DNA from: Pseudanabaena galeata CCNP1313
GTDB taxonomy: Bacteria > Cyanobacteriota > Cyanobacteriia > Pseudanabaenales > Pseudanabaenaceae
Direction of reading: 5' to 3'
Length of the DNA stretch: 64,000 nucleotides
Assembly (NCBI RefSeq): GCF_029910235.1
Contig: NZ_CP112874.1
Span: 2,852,001-2,916,000 of the forward strand
The notes beneath the pieces were generated by a model. The model did no database searches. It had not been told where the DNA came from and was given only the letters and a program-made list of their open reading frames with translations. Positions 35,487 through 39,232 of the stretch are shown piece after piece (the stretch's first letter is position 1; every line of letters starts with the position of its first letter). The position numbers were made by a program, and so were the translations under genes.

Positions 35487-36245
35487 TCTACCTGCTTTAA
35501 TTTGAGCAACCAATGCTTCCAAATCCTTGACCTCTGGTACACCAGAGAAAAATACTCCGTTTACTACAAAGGAAGGTGTGCCGCGTACTCCTAAAGATTT
35601 ACCAAGTTCAAAATCTTTCTTAACTGCTTCCTTGGCTTCTTTGCTTTGGCGATCGCGATTAAAGCGATCGATATCAAGCTTCAAGTTATTAGCTATTTCC
35701 AGATAAAACTCTTCACCAAGTTTGTTCTGCTGCTCAAACAAGGCATCATGGTATTCCCAAAACTTACCTTGTTGGAAAGCCGCCCATGAGGCAAATGCTG
35801 CGGGCTCCGCCTGAGCATGGATCTCGGCTAATGGGAAATGCTTGTATACCAAAGTTACATCGTTCTGATTTTTCGACATAAATTCTTTGACTACAGCATG
35901 ACCTCTGGCACAAAAAGGACATTCAAAGTCGGAGAATTCCGCCATAATAATTTTCTGGCTTGCCGAACCTGTCACTGGAGAATTACGGAGTAACAAACGA
36001 GGCTCTTGGCGAATTTGCGATAAAACCTTATCGCGCAACTGCTCTTCTTGCTGAGCCTGAGCTTTTTGATAAGCCTGCACGGAGTCTAAAATCACCTGTG
36101 GATTTTTACGAATAACCTCTAAAACTTTAGATTCAAATTGAGTGTCAGACAGTTGAGCGCTAGCGGATTGTCCTGTAGAAGCACAACTAGTAATCATCAG
36201 TAAGAGTGCGACTAAGGCTGACAATAGATAGGGTTGGAGGCGCAT
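35484..36245 (-). CDS. DsbA family thiol-disulfide lipoprotein
   Basis: A 253-residue protein. The N-terminal 22 residues form a lipoprotein signal ending LLLMITSC, with the lipid-attachment Cys about residue 21. The thioredoxin-like domain has the active site FSDFECPFCARGHAVVKEF (CPFC) and the cis-Pro in GVRGTPSFVVNGVFF. It should oxidise or isomerise disulfides of exported proteins. The stop codon is the outer edge of a perfect palindrome. Confidence 0.92.
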   Translation of the reverse strand: MRLQPYLLSALVALLLMITSCASTGQSASAQLSDTQFESKVLEVIRKNPQVILDSVQAYQKAQAQQEEQLRDKVLSQIRQEPRLLLRNSPVTGSASQKIIMAEFSDFECPFCARGHAVVKEFMSKNQNDVTLVYKHFPLAEIHAQAEPAAFASWAAFQQGKFWEYHDALFEQQNKLGEEFYLEIANNLKLDIDRFNRDRQSKEAKEAVKKDFELGKSLGVRGTPSFVVNGVFFSGVPEVKDLEALVAQIKAGR

Positions 36246-36591
36246 TGCTAAAACATCCCAAATAGAAAGCGGAATTCTTATCGTTTTAAGTCTACACGAT
36301 CGCTAATTAAAAACAGAAGTACAGCCTTTGCATTTCTATTGTTTCTATACCTTCTAGCACCTTATAGCTGTCGCCATTCTTGTTAGGACATAAAACCCAA
36401 ATAGTGTGAGGCGGCGCTTCGTGCCGCCTCACACTATTTGGGTTTTGATTTGTCCTGATACAGGTGGCTATAGCTATAATGGGTGACGACAAAATATGTT
36501 AAGTTATACTAAGTTAGTTTAAGATTGCAACCGAGGAAATTATTTTGAGACGTAATTAAGAAAATCTTATTAATACAAATAGACATAAAAA
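36246..36591. other. Intergenic region with a TATAGC-ended element
   Basis: Contains the element at 36363-36472. Bases 36480-36591 are AT-rich and include GAGG before the next small gene. Nothing else is recognised. Confidence 0.6.
36363..36472. mobile_element. TATAGC-ended palindromic element, divergent copy
   Basis: TATAGCTGTCGCC on the left and GGTGGCTATA on the right, with TAGGACATAAAACCC and GGGTTTTGATTTGTCC inside and a GCGGCGC hairpin at the centre. It is a diverged relative of the 116-bp copies at 39572 and 54807. Confidence 0.7.
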
Positions 36592-36858
36592 ATGACCGCT
36601 ATTACTGATACTTTCAACAACAGCCAGACTCTTATTATTGCAGGTAACTATTCTGAATATTTAAACTGGCGTAAAAACAATCCATCGATCAAATCTTGCA
36701 AATATGTAGAACGGATTGAAGATGTGCAGGGGGTAAATGGTTTTTTGGCAAACATTGTTCTCTATGGAGATTATGAGCATAATCCTGTGTATCACACTTT
36801 AAAAATGCAAGAAATACTAGCAGAAAAAGCTTCTCCATTTCGTGCATACGTACATTAA
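36592..36858 (+). CDS. Small uncharacterised protein
   Basis: An 88-residue protein (MTAITDTFNNSQTLIIAGNYSEYLNWRKNN...) that I do not recognise. The pattern TLIIAGNYSEYLNW and IEDVQGVNGFLANIVLYGDYEHNPVYHTLK looks like a small alpha/beta fold. No signal peptide or TM. The last five codons and the stop are part of the left arm of a 65-base palindrome, so the C-terminus AYVH may have been shaped by that structure. Confidence 0.65.
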   Translation: MTAITDTFNNSQTLIIAGNYSEYLNWRKNNPSIKSCKYVERIEDVQGVNGFLANIVLYGDYEHNPVYHTLKMQEILAEKASPFRAYVH

Positions 36859-36907
36859 AACTTAAGGGAGCGCCTTGCGTTCCCTTAAGTTTTAATGTAC
36901 GTATGCA
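36843..36907. repeat. 65-base palindrome overlapping a coding 3' end
   Basis: Two 30-base arms starting TGCATACGTACATTAAAAC pair with one mismatch around CCTTG. The left arm covers codons for A-Y-V-H and the stop of the small gene at 36592, so part of the arm is coding sequence and the right arm is its inverted copy. Confidence 0.88.
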
Positions 36908-36928
36908 AGGGTTGGATAAAATAAATCA

Positions 36929-36981
36929 AAGCCCAAAATACAAGTAGCGGCGCTTCGCGCCGCTACTTGTATTTTGGGCTT
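36929..36981. repeat. 53-base palindrome with perfect 25-base arms
   Basis: Arms AAGCCCAAAATACAAGTAGC...GCGC around TTC. Followed by TTTATGTCTTAAGCAAAC, similar to the inner end of the TATAGC-element family (TTTATGTCCTAAGCAAAAC). Confidence 0.8.
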
Positions 36982-37057
36982 TATGTCTTAAGCAAACCTT
37001 TGGTTGCTAGAGGACTTACGCAAAAACGCAGGGTAAGGACAATTCATGACTTATTTA

Positions 37058-37203
37058 ACGTGAGTTCGAGATAAGCTACAAAATTTTAAAAGCCAAAACA
37101 GTAAAAGCCTCGCTTCGCGAGGCTTTTACTGTTTTGGCTCCTAGAGAGGGTTCGCGCTGCGAACCCTCTCTAGGAGCTAGTTTGAAATTAACCCGAACTG
37201 AGG
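37058..37203 (+). mobile_element. MITE variant with ACGTGAGTTCG end and different interior
   Basis: Left end ACGTGAGTTCG as in the 111-bp MITEs, right end CGAACTGAGG. The interior has two other hairpins: AGCCAAAACAGTAAAAGCC and AGAGAGGGTTCGC, each with its complement. Flanked by TTATTTA on both sides (37051-37057 and 37204-37210). The right duplicate includes the stop codon of the kinase gene. Confidence 0.8.
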
Positions 37204-37207
37204 TTAT

Positions 37208-39232
37208 TTACTGCCTGTAAATATAGGTCAAGTTTAGATGTTCAGCCATTCTGTCAAAAATTTTATCTTCAGTAAACGGTTTAGAAAGAAATCCATCAAA
37301 CCCATGCAAAAACAAATCTTCTTCTCTAATATCGATTAAGCTTGCTGTGAGAGCAATAATTTGAACTTTTTGCGAAGCCGATATATTTCTCATTGATTCA
37401 AGTTCCCTAATTGCAGAGGCTGCTTCTTGACCGCCCAATATAGGCATTCTGACATCCATCCAGATCAAATGGGGAGACCAAGACTGCCACACGGCGATCG
37501 CTTCTTCGCCATTACTAACTTCGCGCACCTCAAATCCCAGAGGTGATAGAATCCTAGTTAATAGTTGACGGTTCAGACGGATATCTTCAGCAATCAAAAT
37601 GCGGTAAGTTTGATTCCCTTCAATCCCAATCACCCGATTTAGTAACTTATTGGGAGAATTTAGACTAAATAAATCTAAGGATCTCACAGGAATATAAAAC
37701 CTAAAAGTAGAACCTTCGCCGACTTTACTAGTTACCGACATTTGACCACCCATGATCTTGACGTAGTTATAGCTAATGGATAGCCCTAACCCCGTCCCCT
37801 CTTGCGATCGCCTACCAGAATGCGTCTGCACAAAAGGCTGAAACAAAGTTGATATTTCTGCTTCAGATATACCTGCGCCAGTATCTTCCACTTCAAAGCA
37901 AAGAATGCGAGGTATTTCAGAGTATTCTCCAGCTATCGATTTCACATCTTCAGAGAGACTACGAACATCTACACGCACATGAATATGTCCTGTGTCCGTA
38001 AATTTGATTGCATTACTAATCAAGTTGATTAATATTTGGCGTAACTTACCTTCATCGGTATAAATATATGGGGGGACATCTGGTTGAATGCTGACATCGA
38101 AAGATAGGGATTTTTCTTGGGCTTTCAGAGATAACATATCTCTTGCCGTATCCACAATATTGTATAGATAGCACTCCTTTTCACGGAGAAGTACGCTGCC
38201 AGCTTCGAGTTTCGACATTTCTAAAATGTCATTAATCATCGTTAGTAAATGATTACCACTGTTGCAGATGGTTTGAAGGTCAGCTTGGTGTTGCTCATTT
38301 AACTCTTGGTCATAGAGCATAAGCTGAGCAAAGCCCAGAATTGCGTTCAGAGGAGTTCGCAATTCATGACTCATATTAGCTAAAAATGCGGCTTTAGAGC
38401 GACTTGCTGTCTCGGCTGCATCTTTGGCTAGTTTGAGATCGTGAGTCCTTTCCTCCACACGATGTTCTAAGAGGTTAGCCTGTTCTCGCAGTTTTGTTTC
38501 TGAGTCACGGAGCGCTATTTCTGTCCTTTTAAGCAGCGTAATATCATAGAAAGTGTTTAATAGAACCTGTTCACCTTTGAGCCATAGTGAGTGGAGAGAT
38601 GCTAATACCCACAAGGGTTCTTGATTTGCTTTGCATAGTCGAATCTCATAGTCACGTACCCTTTGATTTTGCAAAAATTGCTGCTGTAAAATCTCCCATT
38701 CGGATGGTAAATAGTAAAGATCCTTAATTGAGCGCTTAATTAACTCGTTGGATTCCCTTTGTAGCATTGTCCCAGCGCTGGTATTGGCATAGGTGATCGT
38801 CCCATCTGAGAGGCTACTTACGAGCATTGCCATACTGGTTGATTCAGCGATCGCCCTAAATTGCTCCTCACTTTGGCGCATGGTTTCAACGGCGCGATTG
38901 TACTGCTCGTATTCGATCGCGTCACCATGTTCGGTAGTAGTCATCAGCATGATTTCGAGATCGCTTTTATCGCGATAGACGATCTCTAAAATTGATTGCA
39001 GGGTAGCTTGTGCCATCTTGCGTTCAATGATTTCACTTTTTAATCTTTTATTGACATCTAGTAGTTCTGATTCAACAAGATCGCCATGTTCAACTGCGGT
39101 TAACAGGGAATTTTCTAGATCGCAGTTCTCCATCTGAAGTTGGCTGACTGACCTTCGTAATTCTTTGACTTCTTGCTGGATCATTTGCCAGTCTTTGATG
39201 GATATTTCTTCAGAAACTTTGGGATTGTCCAT
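37208..39232 (-). CDS. PAS hybrid histidine kinase with C-terminal receiver
   Basis: A 674-residue soluble sensor kinase. Residues 1-115 are coiled and contain two copies of a T-x-EHGD motif (TAVEHGDLVE, TTTEHGDAIE). A PAS domain spans about 120-240, HisKA has H289 (FLANMSHELRTPLNAILG), HATPase spans about 395-520 (NLISNAIKFTDTG, VEDTGAGISEAE, GTGLGLSIS), and a receiver spans about 545-665 (ILIAEDIRLNRQLL, LIWMDVRMPILGG, LSKPF). No TM segment is seen. Input signal unknown; no dedicated regulator is adjacent. Confidence 0.92.
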   Translation of the reverse strand: MDNPKVSEEISIKDWQMIQQEVKELRRSVSQLQMENCDLENSLLTAVEHGDLVESELLDVNKRLKSEIIERKMAQATLQSILEIVYRDKSDLEIMLMTTTEHGDAIEYEQYNRAVETMRQSEEQFRAIAESTSMAMLVSSLSDGTITYANTSAGTMLQRESNELIKRSIKDLYYLPSEWEILQQQFLQNQRVRDYEIRLCKANQEPLWVLASLHSLWLKGEQVLLNTFYDITLLKRTEIALRDSETKLREQANLLEHRVEERTHDLKLAKDAAETASRSKAAFLANMSHELRTPLNAILGFAQLMLYDQELNEQHQADLQTICNSGNHLLTMINDILEMSKLEAGSVLLREKECYLYNIVDTARDMLSLKAQEKSLSFDVSIQPDVPPYIYTDEGKLRQILINLISNAIKFTDTGHIHVRVDVRSLSEDVKSIAGEYSEIPRILCFEVEDTGAGISEAEISTLFQPFVQTHSGRRSQEGTGLGLSISYNYVKIMGGQMSVTSKVGEGSTFRFYIPVRSLDLFSLNSPNKLLNRVIGIEGNQTYRILIAEDIRLNRQLLTRILSPLGFEVREVSNGEEAIAVWQSWSPHLIWMDVRMPILGGQEAASAIRELESMRNISASQKVQIIALTASLIDIREEDLFLHGFDGFLSKPFTEDKIFDRMAEHLNLTYIYRQ

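Follow-up and report, generated by a model that had tools for sequence, protein, structure and literature searches.

The window, meaning the whole stretch of DNA analysed here, comprises 64,000 nucleotides and lies on a 4.93-Mb contig of Pseudanabaena galeata CCNP1313, whose genome of 5.84 Mb is assembled in 6 contigs. A small gene in this window runs into a single inverted repeat at positions 36843–36907, which has 31-nt arms with 30 of 31 positions paired and a CTT loop. From the outside inward, 27 perfect pairs are followed by one G-T mismatch and three further pairs, and then by the loop. The features of the locus are listed below; related genomes are designated by G and a number.

36592..36858, plus strand: small protein gene (open reading frame), 88 amino acids, with its last 15 nt inside the palindrome.
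36843..36873, plus strand: left arm, 31 nt, ancestral, with a coding part at 36844–36858 (AYVH and stop); based on the gene ends of the relatives and the inverted-repeat scan.
36859..36887, no strand assigned: core still alignable with the short hairpin of G005; based on the DNA alignment and the end of the BLAST match at 36887.
36874..36876, plus strand: CTT loop, for which AAG in G005 is the inverted state; based on sequence comparison.
36877..36907, plus strand: right arm, 31 nt, paired with the left arm at 30 of 31 positions; based on sequence comparison.
36888..36907, plus strand: outer 20 nt of the right arm, newly gained and exactly the inverse of 36843–36862 including the gene end; outside the G005 match, with a copy in 0 of 17 relatives, and unique in 464 kb.

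The left arm begins at the last base of a CGT codon and holds GCA TAC GTA CAT TAA, encoding A, Y, V, H, and stop. An earlier note, made from the sequence of the window, had described this arm as containing the last four sense codons and the stop codon of the gene at 36592, and this was confirmed. Its description of the right arm as an inverted copy of the left arm was upheld, and its pairing figure of 29 of 30 bases was corrected to the 30 of 31 given above. The segment 36888–36907 lies within the 27 perfectly paired nucleotides and is the reverse complement of 36843–36862. The predicted RNA fold of 36840–36910 had a free energy of −50.7 kcal/mol, compared with −13.3 kcal/mol (sd 2.9) for shuffled sequences, and the palindrome folds well as both RNA and DNA. 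In the whole window, 36 inverted repeats with arms of at least 12 nt and loops of at most 15 nt were found, whereas none was found in each of three Markov-1 sequences of equal length. The palindrome is thus far above chance. Since 33 of the 36 inverted repeats have arms of at least 15 nt, it is not an isolated structure in the window. No Rfam family exceeded its gathering score in the window.

The small protein had no Pfam match above the cut-off and no NCBIfam match; a candidate Crystall domain was rejected, as its score of 15 bits (E 0.027) fell below the cut-off of 25. Relatives of the small gene were found in 17 of 25 other genomes of the genus Pseudanabaena and in none of 32 genomes of other genera. 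Most of the 14 named loci encoding the small protein are from Pseudanabaena, and the others include one recorded under the name Phormidium tenue FACHB-1050, two under uncultured cyanobacterium, and one under Oscillatoriales cyanobacterium. In one relative, G018 (L012:1501-2040), the 3′ part of the small gene is tandemly duplicated together with its hairpin.

The ends of these relatives were used to distinguish the source arm from the new arm. All 17 relatives carry a C-terminus of the form [R/H][A/S]Y[V/I][H/R/N] followed by a stop codon. On the other hand, a search of the 600 nt downstream for the final 15 nt of the gene in inverse orientation was negative in all 17, with 8 to 11 of 15 nt matched at best. 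In three of the 17 relatives, the last 6 or 7 nt, but no more, recurred as an exact inverse copy within those 600 nt, and in one relative (L018) a different hairpin extends 5 nt into the gene end. Because the codons are kept in every relative and the inverse copy is present in none, the left arm is the source and the outer right arm is new. This is the outcome that the earlier note had anticipated for a comparison of related strains. Homologues without the AYVH codons, which it had named as the finding that would speak against its reading, did not appear among the 17, all of which have kept the matching C-terminal codons. The copied arm also includes the C of the TAC codon, whereas the nearest five relatives (G005, G012, G020, G008, and G017) have TAT; TAC is also present in three more distant relatives. 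Since the right arm carries a base that is absent from the five nearest relatives, the copying is younger than the TAT/TAC change and hence recent.

The palindrome might instead have arrived with both arms together, as a mobile, ready-made element whose insertion at the stop codon provided, by coincidence, the final codons of the gene. Palindromes that look mobile do exist in this genome. A stretch of about 112 bases at 36365–36476, containing the hairpin 36392–36446, is missing in G005, where its flanks adjoin, and G012 has 6 bases between 36347 and 36477 in its place; this region in G005 and G012 is the empty site of a small palindromic element. In addition, some stretches of about 100–190 bases have many further matches in the relatives. 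However, the presence of the left-arm codons without the right arm in 17 of 17 relatives refutes such an arrival for the outer arm and bears out the earlier note in its rejection of a ready-made repeat. Furthermore, a mobile palindromic repeat is recognized by several copies in the genome, whereas the 65-nt palindrome has one full copy, with a 37-nt partial match to its core at 84% identity, and the outer 20 nt of its right arm do not recur in the 464 kb of the genome that was searched. REP/REPIN sequences and other small dispersed repeats are short palindromes scattered between bacterial genes. The hairpins here resemble them in being scattered between genes and in forming, in some cases, families; the palindrome at 36843–36907 differs from them in being single-copy and in having an arm derived from the local gene sequence. 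We consider joint arrival of the two arms highly improbable.

In G005, just a short stem is present at this site, with the sequence TTAAAGGAGCGC AAG GCGCTCCCTTA, and its BLAST match ends inside the right arm. The right arm is 20 nt longer here than in G005. The loop is inverted between the two genomes, CTT here corresponding to AAG in G005. The inverse of the left half and loop of G005 is CGCCTTGCGCTCC, and the corresponding right half here is GCCTTGCGTTCC. One inverted copy and one point change would explain both the loop and the inner stem, on the premise that the G005 loop is the older one. Because the inner stem is common to G005, a short hairpin probably existed beforehand and was then lengthened by copying, and new DNA is probably needed for the outer 20 nt only (36888–36907). 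The proposal of the earlier note that the right arm was made by copying host sequence is therefore upheld, with the qualification that a short hairpin of the G005 type probably existed before the copying. Among the near relatives, the core hairpin was found in G005 only, and G012 has other DNA there, so that the ancestral state rests on one genome. Since the DNA to the right of 36907 is unalignable, insertion of the new segment is indistinguishable from replacement.

It might also be supposed that the long hairpin is ancestral and that a deletion has removed the outer right arm from G005, the only genome in which the short form of this core is known. The long form is present in none of the 17 relatives, and the right arm contains the left-arm base that the five nearest relatives lack. 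Deletion in G005 is therefore very unlikely, although it is the least improbable of the alternatives weighed here.

These results suggest, with a probability of about 85%, that the arm grown at this locus arose by a template switch that copied the gene end into the right arm of an existing short hairpin. Three observations correspond to the marks of a quasipalindrome template-switch mutation, namely, an arm longer than that of G005, new bases that are the precise inverse of the opposite flank, and an inverted loop, the last being a sign of the interstrand variant. In the proposed course of events, the starting state would be a short hairpin directly 3′ of the stop codon. In the lineage leading to this genome, a DNA strand under synthesis would have entered the hairpin, changed to another template, and run back along the loop, the left stem, and 20 nt of the outer flank, that is, the gene end, before it resumed synthesis on the normal template. 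Such an event would at once have extended the right arm with a 20-nt inverse of the gene end and inverted the loop. The single G-T mismatch would stem from a subsequent point change. The template switch would have been tolerated because the DNA that it overwrote or displaced was non-coding. We infer from the sequence comparison that replication was the process, that a single event was involved, and that the nascent or the complementary strand served for the switch.

Loop inversion was also quantified at other loci. Three-base loops from seven Pseudanabaena genomes formed 106 unordered orthologous pairs, of which 33 were the same, 36 were inverted, and 37 were otherwise different. In 2000 shuffles of the loops, the means were 10.4 same and 10.3 inverted, with maxima of 22 and 21, respectively. 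All three loop bases differed in 49 pairs, and 36 of these were exact reverse complements. When the loops GAA, TTC, AAA, and TTT were excluded, 13 pairs were the same, 8 were inverted, and 26 were other, so common loops carry part of the inversion effect. Among the 93 pairs from hairpins whose inner arm had a single occurrence in the available sequence, 33 were inverted. The 106 pairs represent 49 loci, 23 of which had at least one inversion; the pairs share lineages and are thus not independent events, and all counts are from Pseudanabaena. In a looser count of 412 directed comparisons covering all loop lengths, 105 loops were the same, 72 inverted, and 93 other, while 91 comparisons had indels and 51 had an unpaired partner.

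Changes in the arms were examined in 28 orthologous comparisons of the same length. Of the base pairs in these hairpins, 515 were unchanged, 27 were changed on both sides with pairing kept, 34 were changed on one side, and 2 were changed on both sides without pairing. Arms are not always kept perfect; eight of the 34 one-sided changes came from the 2494758 locus described below. The hairpins of this set were selected for perfect arms in this genome, and the counts serve as no more than a hint.

A fold-back artefact of sequencing or assembly would also produce an inverted arm. Hairpins are hard to sequence, and one assembly of this genome was examined. Nevertheless, the same class of feature occurs in separate assemblies of other strains, and inverted loops occur also in hairpins with arms of 15–16 nt, which are spanned by ordinary reads. 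An artefact is the least probable of the alternatives.

Similar one-sided gains are present at other gene ends. In a sample of 464 kb of the genome (20 stretches and the window), 260 inverted repeats with arms of at least 15 nt and loops of at most 15 nt were found. Thirty-two of the 260 reach the 3′ end of a reading frame (33 overlaps, one hairpin touching two genes), as judged with a crude caller for reading frames of at least 90 codons, under which the 88-amino-acid small gene falls below the limit and is uncounted. Candidate orthologous loci were obtained for 61 of the 260 hairpins. Twelve of these 61 were inspected in detail, and three had an asymmetric gain at a gene end, as follows.

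C1 2494758: 10 nt gained relative to G005 and also absent in G012; the loop is that of G012.
C1 2521904: 11 nt gained; the loop is TAT, compared with ATA in G012.
C1 2840048: 5 nt gained, a short gain that is lacking in G005, G008, G012, and G020; the loop is that of G005.

At 2521904, it is the right arm that is coding and was copied, and the left flank present in G012 and G005 has been replaced by the inverse copy. The small repeat family of which this hairpin is a member is represented at three loci in the 464 kb. Of the 11 nucleotides gained, 4 (GTAT) are found family-wide and 7 are local. The unchanged loops at 2494758 and 2840048 indicate that loop inversion is not tied to every gain. 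In all four cases, that is, the palindrome at 36843–36907 and these three, the template is coding and the target non-coding, as would be expected of events that survive purifying selection. A screen for one-arm extensions flagged 24 of 523 hairpins; several of these resemble repeat families or gapped matches, so that not all 24 are counted as events, and the screen missed 2494758 and 2521904.

Further observations were made on hairpins of this kind. At C1 2494758-2494862 in this genome, a second hairpin adjoins the extended one and has ACAATT in common with its new arm, as if by chain copying. The hairpins at C1 2507588-2507638 and 2521904-2521960 in this genome belong to one palindromic family, and their outer arms match their own local flank on both sides; in the third copy of this family (2818398) and in the G012 form, the two flanks differ from each other. 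One hairpin locus, at about 241060 of C27 in G008 (L108) and about 30630 of C114 in G020 (L105), has apparently gained length in two species independently, its arms of 31 nt and 25 nt each matching their own flank.

The position of such hairpins raises the alternative that the arm was built base by base through compensating changes, selected as a stronger transcription terminator. The hairpin lies just 3′ of a stop codon and between convergent genes, and the overlap of sampled hairpins with 3′ ends, crude as the caller is, would fit this explanation. A 20-nt exact match that includes codons, however, requires many independent changes, and loop inversions are left unexplained. A terminator scan of 36200–37300 found 11 terminator-like sites, none of them at the palindrome. 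The GC-rich stem followed at once by a T run that marks a terminator is lacking there; TTTT lies inside the long stem. Stepwise selection as a terminator is thus only slightly less improbable than joint arrival of the arms. The palindrome may nonetheless have begun as a terminator, as A and T tracts flank the core on two sides.

Hairpins with arms of at least 15 nt and loops of at most 15 nt numbered 27 in 100 kb from five other Pseudanabaena genomes and 2 in 260 kb from thirteen genomes of other genera, four of which are of the same family. The corresponding count of hairpins with arms of at least 15 nt was 0 in 50 kb of E. coli K-12. Within the genus, the density ranged widely, with 0, 1, and 14 hairpins in 20 kb of G001, G018, and G007, respectively. 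When the loops of the 260 sampled hairpins were taken with their two closing pairs, 62 were GCGAAGC or its complement and 30 were GCAAAGC or its complement. The oligonucleotide d(GCGAAGC) forms an unusually stable DNA mini-hairpin, and the GCGAAGC loops hint that the folding of single-stranded DNA may matter for these hairpins. Some dispersed repeats of about 130–310 bases (L075:15142-15460, L058:16047-16241, and L059:16512-16682) had many matches in four related genomes.

Two candidate correlates of hairpin density were rejected. Loss of SbcD does not account for the hairpins, as SbcD matches were found in 55 of 56 genomes searched. Y1 transposases (PF01797) had matches in 42 of the 56 genomes and did not track the hairpins; none was found in G007 and G024, which have dense hairpins, and G001, in which 20 kb contained 0 hairpins, had 6 matches. 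A second full-length SbcD-like gene, located at L114:7751-8917 and scoring far above the second match in other genera, was found in 25 of 26 genomes of the genus, including this one. The remaining genome, the draft G013, has 17 hairpins in 74,591 bases, and we therefore claim no link between this gene and the hairpins. With a little less than even confidence, we propose that hairpin copying is very active in many Pseudanabaena genomes, with hundreds to thousands of hairpins that are mostly intergenic, often have DNA loops of the GCGAAGC type, repeatedly extend outward by copying their flanks, gene ends included, and invert their loops so frequently that loop orientation is near-random among orthologues.

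The quasipalindrome template-switch mechanism and its part in the evolution of hairpins are already known. Template-switch mutations associated with quasipalindromes are described in E. coli lacZ reporters (Klaric, Perr and Lovett 2020, PMC7202029) and in yeast (Kim et al. 2013, PMC3820800). As in those systems, the proposed switch perfects an imperfect inverted repeat or extends arm identity; unlike at those reporter loci, natural gene ends serve as the template here, at several loci in one genus. Template-switch mutations have also been described as creating and maintaining RNA hairpins, with stem extension, paired changes, and inverted loops as predictions (Monttinen and Loytynoja 2022, PMC8794818). 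That paper regards a compensatory change combined with an inverted loop as the strongest evidence possible; it found the combination to be extremely rare and counted 69 loop-inversion-like clusters altogether in its RNA data, compared with 36 of 106 pairs of three-base loops inverted between orthologues here. A survey of 118,019 genomes for perfect inverted repeats (PMC13155455) names neither Pseudanabaena, nor cyanobacteria, nor template switching in its main text. In the open-licence literature, we found no paper joining Pseudanabaena, inverted repeat, and hairpin, and no report of template switching at such a scale with gene ends as templates.

Palindromic template switching is known largely from reporters and from inference on RNA genes. 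The conserved protein end provides an internal arrow of time, by which the source and the new arm are separable at single loci. Since natural strains differ by several events, rates, tract lengths, loop flipping, and coding limits are measurable in one genus. The process offers a simple route to long perfect hairpins beside genes.
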